DNA from: Halosolutus amylolyticus
GTDB taxonomy: Archaea > Halobacteriota > Halobacteria > Halobacteriales > Natrialbaceae
Assembly (NCBI RefSeq): GCF_023566055.1
Contig: NZ_JALIQP010000001.1
Location: 248,001-312,000, forward strand
DNA length: 64,000 bases
Direction: 5' to 3'
Positions 22,084 to 62,277 of the stretch are shown here, one piece after another; within the stretch, counting starts at the first letter, position 1, and every line of letters starts with the position of its first letter. The position numbers and the translations under genes were made by a program. The notes under the pieces were generated by a model that was given only the letters and a program-made list of their open reading frames with translations, searched no databases and was not told the origin of the DNA.

Positions 22084-22803
22084 TCAGTGGCGACGATCGA
22101 GGGAGATCCAGTCCGTCGACGTCTCCTGATCGCGGAGGTACCATCGCTGTTCGTATCGGTCGTCCCGTGCTCGAACCTCGACGATCGCGTCGAACAGCGG
22201 TTCCAGGAGGTTGACGGCATCGTGATCACGATCGAGGGGCAGATGGTAGTGGCCCATCCCGTCGACGTGATCGACGCGCGACGTCGCCAGGTGGAGCAAC
22301 CGGAACACGTGTTCGGCGGCGTATTCCTGCAAGAGTGGGACGAGAGAATCTACACAGACGCGCAGTTCTGACGGGGCGAGTCCGTCGGCAGTGTCGTCCA
22401 GTTCGTCGATCGTTTCGACGATTTCGATGCCGAGCGTGCCGAGGTTCGAGGCTGCCGGAACCGTCGGGTCGTCCGCCGACGGATTCAACTCGGAGCAATC
22501 GATCGTCCAGGCCGACTCGACGGTCCCGCCGCTCCCGTGGGACGTGCTGCGTGTATCGCTGTTCGTGACGAACAACCGGTAGCGCGGACCGGGGTCAGTA
22601 TCGCCCAGTAGTCGGTGACAGACGGCATCGTGAGCGTCCGCAGTGTCGGCCCCGACGACAAGTATGTTACTCCCCTCCCGTTTGAGCGTGGCCAGTTCGT
22701 TCGCAAACGTCGCGCTCTCCGGTGCGACTCCCCCTGGATCGCGTTCCATCCGTTTTTGACGGACAAACTGAACTGCAATAAATATTGCGGCCAACGCTAC
22801 CAC
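22084..22803 (-). CDS. Haloarchaeal P-loop-like protein with N-terminal membrane helix (DUF7504-like)
   Basis: 239 residues from GTG 22803. The first 15 residues are hydrophobic (VALAAIFIAVQFV), followed by basic RQKR. The body begins NILVVGADTADAHDAVCHRLLG, the place of a Walker-type loop but without GKT, and continues with WTIDCSELNPS and LGIEIVETIDELDD; these resemble the KaiC/RecA-like DUF7504 group from memory. LRVCVDSLVPLLQEYAAEHVF would be the Walker B strand. Nucleotide binding is doubtful because the loop lacks the lysine. Same strand as the tethered acidic protein downstream, 260 bases apart. Confidence 0.65.
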   Translation of the reverse strand: MVALAAIFIAVQFVRQKRMERDPGGVAPESATFANELATLKREGSNILVVGADTADAHDAVCHRLLGDTDPGPRYRLFVTNSDTRSTSHGSGGTVESAWTIDCSELNPSADDPTVPAASNLGTLGIEIVETIDELDDTADGLAPSELRVCVDSLVPLLQEYAAEHVFRLLHLATSRVDHVDGMGHYHLPLDRDHDAVNLLEPLFDAIVEVRARDDRYEQRWYLRDQETSTDWISLDRRH

Positions 22804-31264: not shown

Positions 31265-32083
31265 TTAGTTGAGAATCGACTGTGCGACCGTCGCGAGCTG
31301 GCCGTTATTGGCCTCGCGGAGCCGATCGTCCCCGATCTTGAGTCGGAGTCGCGGGCGGCCGACGTCGATCGGGACCTTCTCGGTGTCGATCAGGCCCATG
31401 TCCTCGAGTTTGGTCTTGGTGCGGCTGAACGTCGCCTTGGAGGCGATCCCGACGTCTTCGCCCCACTTGCTGATGTCGTACAGCAGGGCCTCGTTCTTGG
31501 CGGCCACGAGCAGGGAGATGGTCACTTCGTCGAGGCCGTCGCCGTCGCCGCGTGCGGTCTCGAGCGAGTCGAGGATCGCGGTGAAGTCGGCCTCGGCGTC
31601 GGGGCTGATCTCCTCGGAGAGGGTGTCGCGAACGTCCGTGATCGGCGGCGTCCGGAGGTTGAACGCCTCGGCGTCCTCCCAGTGGGCTTCGTACGTCTCG
31701 TAGGTGTCGTCGACGAACCCGTCGTCGTCGGTGACGAGACCCCCGACGCGATCGCCCGCGTGGACGATGGCGACGACGCGATCGTCGGTGACGAGCAGGG
31801 AGTTCTCGGGTGCTTCGTCGAGGGTACGGAGTGCAAGCGATTCCGCCGAGATGAGGTCGGCGGCGTTCGACGCGACGATAAAGTCGTCCATGACGTCTTT
31901 GAGCGTGCGTTCGTCGGCGAGCATGTGAACCGATGGGAGGTCGCCGTCGAAGTCCGTGGCTACCGAGACGAACTCTTCGATCGCGTCCCGTGACGGGTTG
32001 ACCATGTACACGTCTCCGGTCGCGTCCTCGAGAACCGACCCGAGGATATCGTCAATCTGGTGGTTGAGTAAATTCGAAGTCAT
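31265..32083 (-). CDS. tbsP: Transcriptional regulator of the TbsP/DUF5821 type
   Basis: 272 residues. The N-terminus NLLNHQIDDILGSVLEDA is followed by an alpha/beta effector-like domain (DVYMVNPSRDAIEEF, FIVASNAADLI, NSLLVTDDRVVAIVHAGD). The C-terminal winged helix spans about residues 180-265: VTISLLVAAKNEALLYDISKW, ASKATFSRTKTKLEDMGLI, then the wing VGRPRLRLKIGD. In Haloferax, TbsP was reported to act with TrmB in sugar-dependent regulation (from memory). A TATA-like AAAATAAGTAAG lies about 30-40 bases upstream. The 3' end adjoins the multi-hairpin element. Confidence 0.85.
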   Translation of the reverse strand: MTSNLLNHQIDDILGSVLEDATGDVYMVNPSRDAIEEFVSVATDFDGDLPSVHMLADERTLKDVMDDFIVASNAADLISAESLALRTLDEAPENSLLVTDDRVVAIVHAGDRVGGLVTDDDGFVDDTYETYEAHWEDAEAFNLRTPPITDVRDTLSEEISPDAEADFTAILDSLETARGDGDGLDEVTISLLVAAKNEALLYDISKWGEDVGIASKATFSRTKTKLEDMGLIDTEKVPIDVGRPRLRLKIGDDRLREANNGQLATVAQSILN

Positions 32084-32481: not shown

Positions 32482-32564
32482 AGACGGTCTGCTGGAACGA
32501 CGTACCGGCGCGACCGAAGGACGGCTTCGCGGTCGCGGCGAAACTGAGTTACAGCAGTCCGTAT
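32482..32564. repeat. Dispersed ~82 bp palindromic element, copy C
   Basis: Right arm TTACAGCAGTCCGTAT matches the other copies; the left arm is degraded (AGACGGTCTGCTGGAA). The inner stem CGGCGCGACCG faces CGGTCGCGGCG, one mismatch. The last T of the element is the first base of the TCA that encodes the stop of the CHAT-domain gene (minus strand). Confidence 0.8.
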
Positions 32565-34651
32565 CAGCGTCCGAACGAGCGAGCGAGCTGTTTGGACCAG
32601 TAGACGTCGCCGTTGTAGATCACTGACGATTCCGATTCTTTGAGCAAGGTCGCGAGTTCCGGTTCCGTGAGCCGGAAGTTCGACTCGGTCCCACAGAGAT
32701 AGGCGTACTCGTTGTCCTCGGTGTGTGGGAAGTAGTACGAACCGGTGACGCGCGTCGAGTAACAGTCGAACGTGACGAGATACTCCTCGTCGGCCGTCTC
32801 GATCGGGTCGATCCGGACGGTGGTCGGCGTCCGGAGTTCACCCTGCGTGAGCGAGTGGGTCCCGTCACCGACGACCGCGTAATCTTTCCCCATCATGATG
32901 CGCCTGCGCGCGAGCCGCATCGCGCGTTCGATACTGAACCCGTGGACGAGGAGTTTGGCGAACGTCGACCCGACCTTGATGGCGTGATCGTTGAGCACTT
33001 TCCTGAACGTCACCGCGCCCGCGACACTGCCCTTCTCGATCAGGTTCATCCCCTCGTAGAACGAACCACAGGCGTTCAGGAAGAACGTCTGGACGTTACA
33101 CGTCGAGAGACTCGACGCCGAGAGGTAGCCGTCGGGACAGCGCAGCCCTCCGGTTTCGCAGTGGCCGATGTAGTGGACGAAGTCGTGCTCGTCCTCGAAG
33201 ACACGGGCGAGTTCGGCCGTCTCGAGCGACTCCGCGACGGTCACGTCCATCGTCAACTCCTCGGAGCGCCGCCGATAGATCTCGGCGACGTGATCGTGCT
33301 CGCCGGCCATCTCCGGATCGTTCAGCACGACGCAGATCGAGGTCGAGTCGCTCGATCGCTCCAGGTAGTCGAGCCGGTTCCGGTAGGCCTCGGGTGCGGA
33401 CTTGAAGACGTCGATCGGAACGCCGTCCGCGAGCCAGCCGTGGACGCGGCCGTGGCGGAGTTCGGGTTTGACGATGTCGACCGAGGCGACCTGGCCCGCG
33501 CTGGCACGGTCCCCGGTGGTCGATTCGGCACCCCGATAGAAGTCCTCGAGCGATCGTTCGACCAGTTCCTTGCCCTCCAGTTCGGACGTCCGCGGGAGGT
33601 AGATCAGGCTCATCCGATCGAGCAGGAACGGGAGCGTCTCGACGCTGTCGGCGGTCGGCCTGACGTACGTCGAGCAGTGCCACTCCGGCATCCGGTGGTC
33701 GATCGCCGCGAAGGGTACCTCGAGGTACGTCGCGAGTCGTTCCTGCGGAGACGCCTCGTATAGCGCCGTCGCGTCGAGGTCGAGGGCCTCGAGCAGGCCC
33801 AGTTCCGACAGGGAGGTCCCGTACGGGCCCGCGTTCCGGATCAGGCAGTCGAGGAAGAACGTCTTCCGGAGCAGCCGTTCGACGTCGCGCTCGAGATCCG
33901 GCATCGGGGCCAGTTCCGTCTCGACCGCGACGTCGGGGAGGCGGAGTCGCGCCCTTTCGCAGTCGTCGGCGACCCGCACCGCGGCCTGGAGGTAGTACGC
34001 AACCGGCGCGGTGACGAACATCGACTCGTATTCGGGCGGGACGACGAGTTCGATCCCGGTGTCGGGCGTGTCCGAGCGGATGCAGTCGCTGATCTCGAGG
34101 TCCGTCCCCCGTTCGATCAGCGGCGGATGGCCGCGGAGCGTCGGATAGGTGCGGTCCGGGCCGTCGGTCTTGTGCGAGGAGGCGAGGTGCGTGATGGCGG
34201 CGGCCACGCCCGCGGGGGAGTCCGGGACCGTCATCGTCCCGGCCGGGAACTCGTGGCGACTGCGAAAGCCGAGGATCGTTCGGCTTCGATCGGGAAACGA
34301 GACGACGGTCGACTCGAAGTCGTCGGTCTTCTCGATCGTCGCCGCACCGGAAAAGCGGAGGTACGTCTTGATCTCGGTGTCGACGTCGACCACGTACTGG
34401 CCGGGTGGGAGCGAGAGCGGTTCGCCGCCCGGATCGAGTTCGTACCGTTCCGACGATCCGAGGGCGAAGGCGTAGACGACGGCGTGTGGAAAGCGGAGTT
34501 CGTCCGTCGTGACGACCACCGTTTCGTCGACGGGACGAGGCATATCCGGGCTCTGCCCGGCGGCGACGTGGTCGGCACCGCGAACCGACAGTTCTGCGTT
34601 GTCTGCGTCCGTCACGCGGAGGACATCGTCGCCGACCTCCCACTCTATCAT
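32564..34651 (-). CDS. CHAT-domain (caspase-fold) protein
   Basis: 695 residues from ATG 34651 (MIEWEVGDDVLRVTDADNA). The C-terminal third carries the CHAT hallmark: DFVHYIGHCETGGL with candidate catalytic H497, then TFFLNACGSFYEGMN with candidate nucleophile C528, and GSVAGAVTFRKVLNDHA as the usual strand after it. Residues 1-430 have no TPRs or other known repeats; they contain predicted beta-rich and helical parts. No signal peptide or membrane segment. CHAT proteases cut protein partners in conflict or death systems, but no partner gene is adjacent. Much longer upstream frames lie opposite glyA and were rejected. Confidence 0.85.
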   Translation of the reverse strand: MIEWEVGDDVLRVTDADNAELSVRGADHVAAGQSPDMPRPVDETVVVTTDELRFPHAVVYAFALGSSERYELDPGGEPLSLPPGQYVVDVDTEIKTYLRFSGAATIEKTDDFESTVVSFPDRSRTILGFRSRHEFPAGTMTVPDSPAGVAAAITHLASSHKTDGPDRTYPTLRGHPPLIERGTDLEISDCIRSDTPDTGIELVVPPEYESMFVTAPVAYYLQAAVRVADDCERARLRLPDVAVETELAPMPDLERDVERLLRKTFFLDCLIRNAGPYGTSLSELGLLEALDLDATALYEASPQERLATYLEVPFAAIDHRMPEWHCSTYVRPTADSVETLPFLLDRMSLIYLPRTSELEGKELVERSLEDFYRGAESTTGDRASAGQVASVDIVKPELRHGRVHGWLADGVPIDVFKSAPEAYRNRLDYLERSSDSTSICVVLNDPEMAGEHDHVAEIYRRRSEELTMDVTVAESLETAELARVFEDEHDFVHYIGHCETGGLRCPDGYLSASSLSTCNVQTFFLNACGSFYEGMNLIEKGSVAGAVTFRKVLNDHAIKVGSTFAKLLVHGFSIERAMRLARRRIMMGKDYAVVGDGTHSLTQGELRTPTTVRIDPIETADEEYLVTFDCYSTRVTGSYYFPHTEDNEYAYLCGTESNFRLTEPELATLLKESESSVIYNGDVYWSKQLARSFGR

Positions 34652-34786
34652 TCGGTACGCTGAATGTAACTCCGACCAGTTAGATGTATCGGGTAGTGGT
34701 AAAAAACAGCTTTCAACCCACTGAACGTGGCACCAGCGGCGTCTCCTCGGACGGGCGAGTTGTGGCTCGACTTGCCGAAGACAAGT

Positions 34787-34798
34787 ACACTTATACAG
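34787..34798 (+). promoter_or_regulatory. TATA-like element of glyA
   Basis: TACACTTATACA lies 22-33 bases before the ATG at 34820, fitting a leaderless or nearly leaderless transcript, and it supports that start over one 93 bases upstream. Confidence 0.6.
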
Positions 34799-34819
34799 TC
34801 GCCAGCCGCCACATCGGAC

Positions 34820-36067
34820 ATGGAACACGAGCACGTCCGGGACGTCGATCCCGCCGTCGCAGACGCTCTCGAGGGAGAGGTAGATCGCCAGCGAAACTCC
34901 TTGCAGATGATCGCCAGCGAGAACCACGCCAGCCGCGCCGTCATCGACGCCCAGGGAAGCGCGCTGACGAACAAGTACGCCGAGGGGTATCCCGGTTCGC
35001 GCTACTACGGCGGCTGCGAGTACGCCGACGAGGTCGAACAACTCGCGATCGATCGCGCGAAAGAACTGTTCGGTGCCGAGCACGTCAACGTCCAGCCCCA
35101 CTCGGGCACCCAGGCCAACCAGGCCGTCTACTTCGCGATGCTCGAACCGGGCGACAAGATCCTCTCGCTGGACCTGACCCACGGCGGCCACCTCAGTCAC
35201 GGCCACCCCGCGAACTTCGTGGGGCAGCTCTACGACGTCGAGCAGTACGAGGTCGACCCCGAGACGGGCTACCTCGACTACGAGGGACTGGCCGAGCACG
35301 CCGAGGAGTTCGAACCCGACGTCATCGTCTCGGGCTACTCCGCGTACCCGCGCGAAATCGAGTGGGAGCGCATCCAGGACGCCGCCGACAGCGTCGGTGC
35401 GCTCCACCTCGCGGACATCGCCCACATCACGGGCCTGGTCGCCGCCGGCGTTCACCCCTCGCCCGTGGGCATCGCCGACTTCGTCACCGGTTCGACCCAC
35501 AAGACGATTCGGGCCGGTCGCGGCGGCATCGTGATGACCAGCGAGGAGTACGCCGACGATATCGACTCGGCGGTCTTCCCCGGCGGGCAGGGCGGTCCGC
35601 TCATGCACAACGTCGCCGGCAAGGCCGTCGGCTTCAAGGAGGCCCTCGAACCCGAATTCGAGGACTACGCCGAACAGACCGTCGCGAACGCGACGGCGCT
35701 GGGCGAACGGCTCTCGGAAAACGGCTTCTCGCTCGTCTCTGAGGGAACGGACAACCACCTCGTGCTCGTCGACCTGCGCGAGAGCCACCCCGACACCTCT
35801 GGCGGCGACGCCGAGGAAGCGCTCGAGGACGCCGGCATCGTTCTCAACGGGAACACGGTCCCCGGCGAGACCCGATCGGCCTTCGACCCCAGCGGCATCC
35901 GGGCCGGCACGCCCGCGCTCACGACCCGCGGCTTCGACGAGGACGACTGCCGGGAGGTCGCCGACCTCATCACGCGCGTCGTCGACGCCCCCGAGGACGA
36001 GTCCGTCGTCGAGGCAGTCCGCGAGGACGTCCAGGCGCTGTGTGACGAGAACCCGCTGTACGAGTAG
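34820..36067 (+). CDS. glyA: Serine/glycine hydroxymethyltransferase
   Basis: 415 residues from ATG 34820 (MEHEHVRDVDPAVADALEG). PLP-enzyme signatures are clear: LQMIASENHASRAV, NKYAEGYPGSRYYGG, VNVQPHSGTQANQAVYFAM, LHLADIAHITGLVAAGVHPS and VTGSTHKTIRAGRGGIVM, where the lysine of THKT binds PLP. It interconverts serine and glycine, charging tetrahydrofolate with a C1 unit, and folD follows within 1.1 kb. The C-terminal part FDEDDCREVADLITRVV is standard. Confidence 0.97.
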   Translation: MEHEHVRDVDPAVADALEGEVDRQRNSLQMIASENHASRAVIDAQGSALTNKYAEGYPGSRYYGGCEYADEVEQLAIDRAKELFGAEHVNVQPHSGTQANQAVYFAMLEPGDKILSLDLTHGGHLSHGHPANFVGQLYDVEQYEVDPETGYLDYEGLAEHAEEFEPDVIVSGYSAYPREIEWERIQDAADSVGALHLADIAHITGLVAAGVHPSPVGIADFVTGSTHKTIRAGRGGIVMTSEEYADDIDSAVFPGGQGGPLMHNVAGKAVGFKEALEPEFEDYAEQTVANATALGERLSENGFSLVSEGTDNHLVLVDLRESHPDTSGGDAEEALEDAGIVLNGNTVPGETRSAFDPSGIRAGTPALTTRGFDEDDCREVADLITRVVDAPEDESVVEAVREDVQALCDENPLYE

Positions 36068-55936: not shown

Positions 55937-56012
55937 CTGGCCGCACTCACGAGGGAACCGACGACACGGTTGTGGTTCTCACCAGTCGCTGTGGTGCATC
56001 TGAATATGAATA

Positions 56013-56133
56013 GGAGCGGCGAATCGAATTTCCCAGAGGATCTCTCACTCCAGTACTGATCGACACGCAGGCGAGCTTATCTGCCGTGTTCGGAATGGGT
56101 ACGGGAGGGACCTCGCCGCTGTGGCCGCTGTAA
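56013..56133 (-). rRNA. 5S rRNA, second (distal) copy
   Basis: About 121 bases, aligned along the entire length with the 5S next to the 23S gene but differing at more than ten positions. Some differences are paired: the terminal stem is AGCGGC/GCCGCT here and GGCGGC/GCCGCC there, and GGCGAGG/GCTCGCC replaces GGCGGGG/GCCCGCC. The core CTCCCGTACCCAT and AACACGG are kept. It is probably functional or recently so. Ends approximate. Confidence 0.85.
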
Positions 56134-56141
56134 TGCCGATC

Positions 56142-56158
56142 GGCGGAATCGAACCGCC
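56142..56158 (-). promoter_or_regulatory. T-arm-like hairpin 5' of the distal 5S gene
   Basis: GGCGG-TTCGATT-CCGCC on the minus strand has the form of a tRNA T arm and lies 8 bases before the 5S start. In Haloferax a tRNA-like element before 5S is reported to be cut by tRNase Z (from memory); this hairpin fits such a site. Confidence 0.65.
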
Positions 56159-56204
56159 GTCAGACCACGATCGGTTGCGTTCGGCTGCTGAATGAAGTAT
56201 GAGT

Positions 56205-56326
56205 GGTGGCGGCGAATCGAGTTTCCCAGAGGGTCTCCCACTCCAGTACTCACCGAAACGCAGGCGGGCTTATCTTCCGTGTTCGGGATGGGTACGGGAG
56301 GAACCCCGCCGCTGTGGCCGCCTTAA
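56205..56326 (-). rRNA. 5S rRNA, first copy (next to 23S)
   Basis: 122 bases from TTAAGGCGGCC to CGCCGCCACC, close to the Haloarcula 5S as remembered. The terminal stem GGCGGC/GCCGCC, loop A CTCCCGTACCCATCCCGAAC and helix parts CTCTGGGAAACTCG are intact. Ends approximate by a few bases. Confidence 0.93.
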
Positions 56327-56334
56327 CGCCGATT

Positions 56335-56351
56335 CACGGAATCGAACCGTG
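56335..56351 (-). promoter_or_regulatory. T-arm-like hairpin 5' of the first 5S gene
   Basis: CACGG-TTCGATT-CCGTG on the minus strand, 8 bases before the 5S start. It shares loop and distance with the hairpin before the distal 5S, but its stem differs in a fully compensated way. Likely a tRNase Z recognition element. Confidence 0.68.
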
Positions 56352-56374
56352 ATCATGCCAATATCGGTGGCGTA

Positions 56375-56447
56375 AGACCGTTATGTACGTGTAGTCCAGT
56401 TAGCGCCCGGACCCGTTCTCGAATCACGGATCCAATGCGATGTAGTA
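56375..56447 (-). other. 3' arm of the 23S rRNA processing stem
   Basis: GTACGTGTAGTCCA and GGACCCGTTC on the plus strand repeat in inverted form as TGGACTACACGTAC and GAACGGGTCC at about 59410-59446. The two flanks can close a long stem around the 23S sequence, the normal archaeal substrate for splicing-endonuclease cleavage. Confidence 0.75.
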
Positions 56448-59364
<2,917 letters not shown>

Positions 59365-59458
59365 GTTCATCGGATCGGCGATTGCGCAATGCAATCACGT
59401 AGTGACCCGGGAACGGGTCCAGTGGACGCCTGGACTACACGTACACACGGTCTCATCT
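59365..59458 (-). other. 5' arm of the 23S rRNA processing stem
   Basis: Contains GAACGGGTCC and TGGACTACACGTAC, complementary to 56375-56447 on the other side of the gene. Short bulges interrupt the pairing, as expected for bulge-helix-bulge processing. Confidence 0.72.
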
Positions 59459-59592
59459 GCAGGCCTGTAGACAGCAGGCCTGCATTAACCCTTCCCACCC
59501 ACGCTTGCGCGGGATGGTGCATCGGTTATGTTCGGATTAGATCGAAATCGTCTGCCCCACTTAAGGGGCACGATTCGATCCGCTCCGAGACA

Positions 59593-59664
59593 TGGACCCA
59601 CAGGGATTCGAACCCTGGGCATCCTCCTTGCAAAGGAGGCACTCTACCACTGAGCTATGGGCCC
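59593..59664 (-). tRNA. tRNA-Ala (anticodon UGC) in the 16S-23S spacer
   Basis: Acceptor GGGCCCA pairs with TGGGTCC allowing a G-T pair; discriminator A. Anticodon arm CCTCC-TTTGCAA-GGAGG with TGC at the centre. T arm CAGGG-TTCGAAT-CCCTG. Spacer tRNA-Ala is normal for Halobacteria. Confidence 0.96.
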
Positions 59665-59701
59665 ACCCCTGCTGGAGTGACCAGCAGGGAGCAAACGTTA
59701 G

Positions 59702-59758
59702 CCTCGACAGTTCAAAGGTGCCCGATCGGCCGTGCGTGGTCGATCGAACGTGTGGGCC
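59702..59758 (-). other. 3' arm of the 16S rRNA processing stem
   Basis: CTCGACAGTTC, GCCCGATCGG and ATCGAACGTGTGG are complementary to GAACTGTCGAG, CCGATCGGGC and CCACACGTTCGAT at 61363-61422. The stem of more than 45 pairs with internal bulges flanks 16S and is the usual archaeal processing structure. Confidence 0.82.
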
Positions 59759-59818
59759 ACTCGCTGTGACCGCAAATCGCGAAGGTGGGTCAGGCGCGTC
59801 GGCCTGATCCCGGTCTGT

Positions 59819-61292
<1,474 letters not shown>

Positions 61293-61301
61293 GCTATATT
61301 A

Positions 61302-61322
61302 CTCCCAGTCCAAGACTGGGAG
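61302..61322 (-). other. Leader hairpin 5' of 16S rRNA
   Basis: CTCCCAGTC-CAA-GACTGGGAG forms a perfect 9-bp stem 10 bases upstream of the 16S start. It may help define the mature 5' end. Confidence 0.6.
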
Positions 61323-61362
61323 GGTCTGTTGGCGGTGAATGTTCGTACACACTCACACAGTT

Positions 61363-61422
61363 GGGTCCACACGTTCGATGACACAGATCGCGGACCGATC
61401 GGGCGTCACCGAACTGTCGAGG
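61363..61422 (-). other. 5' arm of the 16S rRNA processing stem
   Basis: Pairs with 59702-59758 over most of its length: CCACACGTTCGAT, CCGATCGGGC and GAACTGTCGAG all find exact complements there. Confidence 0.82.
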
Positions 61423-61588
61423 CTAACATCAGATCCCATCTGTACGGCGGACCGCAGGGGTAGGATCCTCATTTCCTTCGGATCTAAACGTAGGCCGTCT
61501 GGGGTACATAACCCCTTCGAACCTCGTTCGATCCGAGCGACGGAACGCGTCGAGCGTCCCGCCGTTCACATCACATCCGAATCCCCTC

Positions 61589-61611
61589 GTATACTTAAGG
61601 GCAACGGATCG
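61589..61611 (-). promoter_or_regulatory. rRNA promoter 1 (closest to 16S)
   Basis: Minus strand: GATCCGTTGCCCTTAAGTAT. The GATCCGTTGCCC part recurs in promoter 2 in the same position before the TATA-like word. Located about 300 bases before 16S. Confidence 0.7.
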
Positions 61612-61670
61612 TTTCCGCGCCGGAAATCGCATCCGGCGAGGACGTTCGCGATCCAGTCTGAGTGCCCAGG

Positions 61671-61695
61671 CACGTATAAGGGCAACGGATCGTCG
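61671..61695 (-). promoter_or_regulatory. rRNA promoter 2
   Basis: Minus strand: GATCCGTTGCCCTTATACGT, nearly the same word as promoter 1 and 80 bases upstream of it. TTATAC is the TATA part. Confidence 0.72.
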
Positions 61696-61740
61696 TAACC
61701 GGCTGCGCCGGCCACGAGCACGATCCGAATCGAACGCCCG

Positions 61741-61768
61741 TACACGAATAAGACCGTCGGATCGAACC
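61741..61768 (-). promoter_or_regulatory. rRNA promoter 3
   Basis: Minus strand: GATCCGACGGTCTTATTCGT followed by GTACGGGCGTTCGA. The BRE-like CGACGG and TATA-like CTTATTCG match the haloarchaeal rRNA promoter style. Confidence 0.68.
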
Positions 61769-61878
61769 GACGATCGGAACGAGGGTGGATGCAGTGCCTG
61801 CCTCCGCGCTGGGACACAGCCGGAGGGAACGTGGCGGCGTGCGCCACGTCGTTCGCATTAGTTTCGAACGCCCGGTTC

Positions 61879-61897
61879 GCATATAAGGCCGTCGAAC
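61879..61897 (-). promoter_or_regulatory. rRNA promoter 4
   Basis: Minus strand: TTCGACGGCCTTATATGCG, the clearest match to remembered haloarchaeal rRNA promoters (TTCGACG then TTATGTA-like). About 590 bases before 16S. Confidence 0.75.
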
Positions 61898-61955
61898 GAG
61901 AGCCGCATCGGAATCCGGTACCATGAGACGGTTTTGCACTGGACAGTCACCCGAG

Positions 61956-61975
61956 TGATACTTATAAAGAAACCA
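61956..61975. promoter_or_regulatory. Possible fifth rRNA promoter or unrelated TATA box
   Basis: GTGATACTTATAAAGAAACC holds a strong TATA-like word on either strand. It lacks the CGACGG-type word of the other four, so its membership in the rRNA promoter set is unsure. 61976-62277 holds no recognisable gene. Confidence 0.4.
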
Positions 61976-62277
61976 GTAACTCGACGAATCAGTACGATGG
62001 AAGTCGACGCAGGCACGGAGTATCACGCGGGCGGAGGTCGGCCGGTCATTCCGCCCTCGCAGACACGGTCGGGCCGAATGATACCCGCGCGGTTCGCACT
62101 CGGGCGTGCACGCGCAAGAAGGCTTCGTGTCGACTGGGCCCAGAGGGGCTCGGGTTCGACCGATAGCGTGTCACGGGCGACGATCGGCCCGAACTGGTTC
62201 GGGGACGGGTCGAGACACCGGCAATCGGCACTTCGCATCGATGCCGATAAACCGTGTGCGTCACAAGGGGCAGATGA

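Follow-up and report, generated by a model that had tools for sequence, protein, structure and literature searches.

The best-known CHAT proteases are separase and those of CRISPR and gasdermin defence systems. Among the described proteins that come closest to the one studied here, SAVED-CHAT (structure 8tl0) is the effector protease of type III CRISPR/CBASS, and Csx29, the TPR-CHAT protease of Craspase, is gated allosterically and released by target RNA, according to the available part of PMC10028731. HetF of cyanobacteria, as described in excerpts of PMC8406250, is a resident CHAT protein outside defence, which regulates development and division. In addition, extracts of Haloferax volcanii hold a strong activity that cleaves LEVD, VEID and IETD and is inhibited by zVAD-FMK; in the accessible text of that report, the authors assign no gene and call for the protein behind the activity to be identified (PMC3615174).

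The CHAT gene examined here lies in a 64,000-nucleotide stretch of haloarchaeal DNA (the window), and its product, P0001, resembles each of these systems in part. P0001 shares the CHAT fold of SAVED-CHAT over residues 434-602, and the HYIGH and LNAC motifs of P0001 correspond to HFIGH and LNAC in that protein; however, P0001 is encoded by a chromosomal core gene, a scan of ten neighbours showed no CRISPR gene, and residues 1-321 have no SAVED match in the Foldseek fold list, absence from which is no exclusion. With Csx29, it has two caspase-like halves and an H-C pair in common, but it contains no TPR (Pfam, E ≤ 1), starts with a beta-rich domain in the model, and is encoded among housekeeping genes with no Cas7-11/gRAMP or CRISPR genes adjoining. 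The clan CD peptidases separase and gingipain are its best VIA matches, gingipain over both halves (323-603), yet identity is 9-16%, the N-terminal parts are different, and the cellular roles are unrelated as far as known. HetF differs in having membrane and TPR domains (PMC8406250, in the part available), and, in contrast to gasdermin-protease pairs, no gasdermin gene was found among the ten neighbours of P0001 at E ≤ 1e-5. The H. volcanii activity comes from the same organism group and is of the same expected enzyme class as the CHAT family but, unlike the family, is without a gene. We put at roughly 0.6 the probability that P0001 belongs to a resident family of signal-gated CHAT cysteine endopeptidases, each latent until its N-terminal domain is signalled.

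Gene structure and predicted fold

An earlier note on this DNA had described a lone CHAT-type protein with a catalytic H497 and C528, and both residues lie exactly there, in HYIGH and LNAC, within a 695-aa reading frame on the minus strand (Table 1). The frame stays open 5' of the ATG as far as position 35788. Since nearly all of the 29 nearest orthologues begin alike, with MIEW/MLRW-like first residues, and a conserved promoter-like element lies 26 bp upstream, the ATG at 34651 is supported as the start. This element is conserved across most of the Natrialbaceae loci compared and has one copy in the whole genome when ≤1 mismatch is allowed; being a single genomic site, it yielded no regulon. 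Against Pfam at E ≤ 1, P0001 matched no TPR, gasdermin or CRISPR family and neither PF12770 nor PF00656, the latter setting it apart from metacaspases and caspases, and NCBIfam produced nothing useful. A match to PF10065 was dismissed as chance level (E 0.12).

Table 1. Coordinates of the CHAT gene, its predicted parts and its neighbours in the window.
Feature	Position	Strand	Basis or remark
CHAT-family protein, 695 aa (P0001)	32564..34651	-	ATG at 34651, stop at 32564
Promoter-like element CCGATACATCTAACT (CCGATACAACTAACT)	34678..34692	-	ends 26 bp before ATG
N-terminal domain, residues 1-321	33689..34651	-	predicted alone, pLDDT 92.1
First, non-catalytic caspase-like half, residues ~322-433	33353..33688	-	gingipain/separase/Csx29 alignment starts
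Catalytic CHAT half, residues ~434-602	32846..33352	-	8tl0 alignment, Z 16.6
H497 codon, predicted catalytic His, motif HYIGH	33161..33163	-	fold/profile alignment and conservation
C505 codon, invariant in 136/136 including the active-site-dead clade	33137..33139	-	family alignment
C528 codon, predicted catalytic Cys, motif LNAC	33068..33070	-	fold/profile alignment and conservation
tbsP, transcriptional regulator, downstream neighbour	31265..32083	-	NF047393, 6e-126; conserved
glyA, serine hydroxymethyltransferase, divergent neighbour, 75 bp gap	34727..36067	+	PF00464; conserved

An AlphaFold model built from an alignment of P0001 with 64 relatives from named genomes (pLDDT 84.8, pTM 0.87) was compared with known structures. 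Foldseek with the full model returned SAVED-CHAT at the top (5.1e-8), followed by separase (8e-6) and gingipain (2.1e-5), and VIA aligned separase (Z 18.2, rmsd 5.0, 220 residues aligned), gingipain RgpB (Z 18.1, rmsd 2.6, 241 aligned, model residues 323-603), SAVED-CHAT 8tl0 (Z 16.6, rmsd 2.6, 168 aligned, model residues 434-602) and Craspase TPR-CHAT (Z 14.4, rmsd 3.1, 203 aligned). Because the separase, gingipain and Csx29 alignments mostly begin at model residues 322-334, the caspase-like region divides into two halves, leaving an N-terminal domain of 321 residues. In the model, residues 322-602 are thus a separase/gingipain/CHAT fold of the two-half caspase-like type. The earlier claim of a CHAT-type caspase fold, for which structure prediction had been proposed as a check, is borne out by this model and its Foldseek and VIA matches. 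The 430-residue N-terminal part of that note indeed gave no TPR match; it is not a single unit, since a domain of ~321 residues is followed in it by residues 322-433, the first of the two caspase-like halves.

Model strands 489-495 and 520-526 end directly before H497 and C528, and a profile alignment with 8tl0, itself a weak match (E 0.13), sets HYIGH on HFIGH and LNAC on LNAC. When the PF12770 profile was run across 41 related genomes, all six matches fell at positions of CHAT family members, one of them exceeding the Pfam cut-off (E 3.4e-9). The features by which CHAT and clan CD proteins are recognized, namely a caspase-like fold, a conserved His and Cys after adjacent core strands, and homology to PF12770 at the level of the family, are therefore all present.

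In its own model the N-terminal domain, which is conserved, has a beta-rich portion (~1-142) followed by an alpha/beta and helical portion. Residues 1-321 gave a best Foldseek E of 6.6e-3 against the PDB, with nothing at E ≤ 0.001 and no SAVED match, and the best VIA result was a mutarotase-like sandwich over residues 1-136 at noise level (Z 8.4); no known sensor was matched.

A resident gene between glyA and tbsP

As the earlier note had it, the gene lies between a regulator gene, here assigned as tbsP, and glyA, and no TPR, gasdermin or CRISPR family was detected in P0001 (E ≤ 1) or in the ten neighbours scanned (E ≤ 1e-5). The surroundings are housekeeping in character and include genes for proteasome alpha, SBDS, RNase P subunits, a methyltransferase and folD. 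Of 80 named haloarchaeal loci, 68 show divergent glyA, CHAT and tbsP in this order. Among the other 12, four end at a contig end (L117, L120, L130, L145), four have glyA but lack tbsP in the flanking DNA, in two no glyA was detected, and glyA is on the opposite strand in one and 1.7 kb away in another; loci without tbsP nearby are L090, L100, L102 and L104. Of 14 tbsP loci in genomes selected for having no clear orthologue, 12 have glyA directly next to tbsP. This indicates that these two genes formed a pair first and that the CHAT gene either entered it or was repeatedly lost from it; gene order, which may reflect shared ancestry, is by itself no proof of a functional link.

Elsewhere, on a Halobaculum salinum plasmid (L232, 6487-9588), a CHAT gene and a TbsP-like (DUF5821) gene stand side by side in divergent orientation, with no glyA and with a histidine-catabolism operon adjoining the pair; this adjacency hints at a link between CHAT and TbsP. 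Within the window, a DUF7504 gene lies at 22084-22749 on the minus strand, ~10 kb from the CHAT gene, and such a gene is found 8-14 kb from the orthologue in 16 of 61 genomes, an instance of long-range synteny and not of an operon. Positions 56001-62000 have low GC (0.575-0.581) and a tRNA-Ala at 59592-59665, and are probably an rRNA operon with a spacer tRNA.

The family to which P0001 belongs is mainly haloarchaeal and runs through most haloarchaea, P0001 being a core member. At 1e-5, a family member was present in 54 of 61 related genomes, and 125 of 148 Haloferacaceae genomes also have one. A scan of genome contigs found 364 relatives, the best 80 of which are all from Halobacteria. Across the phylum, 50 of 294 genomes gave a match: 46 belong to the same order as the source and four to one other family. 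In these four relatives from outside the order (L269-L272) the H and C are kept in three, the exception being L269, in which C528 is lost and the position of H497 is changed; by sequence resemblance, their adjoining genes look like dnaG and a RimI-type acetyltransferase gene. A small number of relatives are labelled as CHAT or caspase family proteins in public annotation, and a literature search, judged by titles, abstract starts and term counts, found no account of a haloarchaeal CHAT family. The composition of the gene is native (GC3 0.859, against 0.864-0.916 in four neighbours), which together with the conserved locus and the wide spread in related genomes upholds the earlier view of a resident archaeal gene.

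Conservation of the catalytic pair and a clade that lost it

A FastTree tree of 136 sequences (39 orthologues and 97 paralogues), rooted at the midpoint, grouped the 39 orthologues together with a support of 0.935. All 39 orthologues and 83 of 84 active-type paralogues retain both H and C (122/123 together). The sister group of the orthologues is a clade of 13 members in which the pair is intact in none (0/13). A histidine kinase is encoded upstream of eight of these 13, and the other 84 paralogues have a kinase upstream in one case (L056) and a divergent kinase in one (L069). Since the 13 dead sequences form one clade, the kinase link counts as one event. At L041 (5104-12040), three tandem copies in one genome all lack the catalytic pair.

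Two further positions may be recorded here. R173 of the RGHPP motif (residues 173-177) is present in all 78 rows of one family alignment. At position 551, 70 of 84 active-type paralogues have an acidic residue (D in 62, E in 8), which would make Asp an unfavourable P1 residue should this position line the P1 pocket.

Many paralogues are encoded behind signalling genes

The 110 family matches were reduced to 97 paralogues by removing nine orthologues, L217 (the same place as L062), L218 and L219 (both cut off) and a short fragment at L040. Of the 97, 32 are preceded at a distance of 3-198 nt by a DUF7504 (PF24336) gene in the same orientation, and one more has a divergent DUF7504 gene; the 65 without a same-strand DUF7504 directly upstream include that one. 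These partner counts depend on ORF picking that scores low-GC genes poorly, and partners were checked by Pfam in representatives only, others being assigned by similarity. For paralogues 9949 of L034 and 2848 of L178, at which another ORF was picked, the DUF7504 assignment comes from the neighbour data of the family matches. Because the source genome has six DUF7504 genes in all, we estimate that ~0.1% would be expected for a random gene. In addition, all 11 single-copy Haloferacaceae genomes fetched, a selection from the larger group with a single match, carry the DUF7504-CHAT pair.

Other paralogues are encoded behind an Orc1/Cdc6-like ATPase with AAA_16, Cdc6_lid and winged-helix domains (13/97) or behind a PAS/GAF histidine kinase (9/97). 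In a reverse check, a close relative of the Orc1/Cdc6-like protein on a Natribaculum plasmid (L252) had no CHAT gene within 13 kb, so this ATPase also occurs alone. Two HalOD1-DUF7504 fusions occur among the partners scanned. HalOD1 is described in part of PMC5847659 as fused to a divergent KaiC-like ATPase domain, and DUF7504 may be that domain; one DUF7504 protein had no match among PDB sequences, and nothing on DUF7504 was found in the literature search. The core copy itself has no signalling gene beside it. The earlier description of the protein as lone and without known partners consequently holds for the core copy and fails for the family, in which the comparison of neighbours across many genomes, suggested at that time, finds signalling genes recurring beside the paralogues.

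The source genome also carries two tandem paralogues (L034, 6926-12012; C1:956425-961511) with ribosomal-protein-type genes on one side and an EF-2-like gene on the other, flanking genes that are common to nine fetched loci. Their GC3 is 0.54-0.56, compared with 0.86-0.92 for the orthologue and its neighbours, and the two are separated by a gene that weakly matches response regulators and HalX.

Proposed function and alternatives

The pattern fits a protease that, by analogy with gated CHAT enzymes, would be restrained by its N-terminal domain and freed by a signalling partner. The putative enzyme would be made constitutively or from its own promoter and would remain latent until a signal reached residues 1-321, which may serve as a regulatory part, probably binding a ligand or a partner. 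Once activated, it would be expected to cut a single intracellular protein or a small number of them, a regulator being the likeliest target, and not to carry out bulk digestion. For the paralogues, the signal might come from the co-encoded DUF7504, HalOD1-DUF7504 or Orc1/Cdc6-like protein; for the core copy, it would have to come from a partner acting in trans or from a small ligand. The dead clade would have kept the same scaffold behind a histidine kinase without catalysis.

CRISPR and gasdermin effectors are among the known CHAT proteases, and the gene might instead be a resident defence gene whose product kills or arrests the infected cell. SAVED-CHAT is such a CHAT effector in the available part of PMC11229360, paralogues occur on 25 plasmid records, every one haloarchaeal, and paralogue number differs from genome to genome. 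However, the housekeeping position among proteasome, SBDS, RNase P, glyA and folD genes is conserved in most named loci, and no PADLOC model matched P0001 at E ≤ 1, or four relatives and one DUF7504 at E ≤ 0.01; three of the ten neighbours do have PADLOC matches, by way of general GTPase, methyltransferase and hydrolase domains. Moreover, no relative was found among 50,697 phage records at 1e-5 and none was confirmed in IMG/VR, and we regard an antiviral or suicide effector as quite unlikely. Since its chromosomal place is conserved and its relatives lie behind signalling genes, the core copy is probably a resident, signal-controlled protease and not an antiviral weapon. A purely non-catalytic role, in which the fold is kept for partner binding with catalysis secondary or lost, would account for the 13-member sister clade, retained without its catalytic pair, and for C505, which is as conserved as that pair; the near-universal retention of H and C in the orthologues and the 84 other paralogues argues against it, and we consider it very unlikely.

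The H. volcanii extracts raise the possibility of an abundant, constitutive caspase-like housekeeping peptidase that needs no gating signal. The zVAD-FMK-sensitive cleavage, the protein for which was still being sought in the text available (PMC3615174), would suit such an enzyme, as would a caspase-fold family in most Haloferacaceae genomes, including one probable Haloferax. A 2.1-kb stretch shared at 96% with the H. gibbonsii plasmid pHGLR3 marks that genome (G164) as a probable Haloferax, and the genome encodes a DUF7504-CHAT pair (L233) with H and C intact; H. volcanii has DUF7504, which was used as a control. The member is thus placed in a probable Haloferax and not in H. volcanii by name, however, and the acidic residue at position 551 of most paralogues would, if it does line the P1 pocket, disfavour Asp. 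Furthermore, the proteasome is raised as an alternative source in the same excerpts (PMC3615174), and CHAT enzymes such as Csx29 are gated (PMC10028731, available part), so that a constitutive peptidase appears unlikely. The CHAT family is a candidate source of the activity. A bolder version, that the family is the archaeal caspase behind the extract activity and also forms a signal-gated proteolytic relay of normal physiology, not of defence, is in our opinion doubtful; in such a relay DUF7504/HalOD1, an Orc1/Cdc6-like ATPase or a kinase would feed the CHAT protease or its dead twin.

We therefore return to the resident, signal-gated protease as the preferred reading of P0001 and its relatives. 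If it is true, a chromosomal CHAT family with ties to signalling genes and a separate dead clade would bring regulated proteolysis into archaeal signal transduction. The family also makes the caspase-like activity of Haloferax, so far without a gene, testable through a short list of candidate genes in a tractable model.
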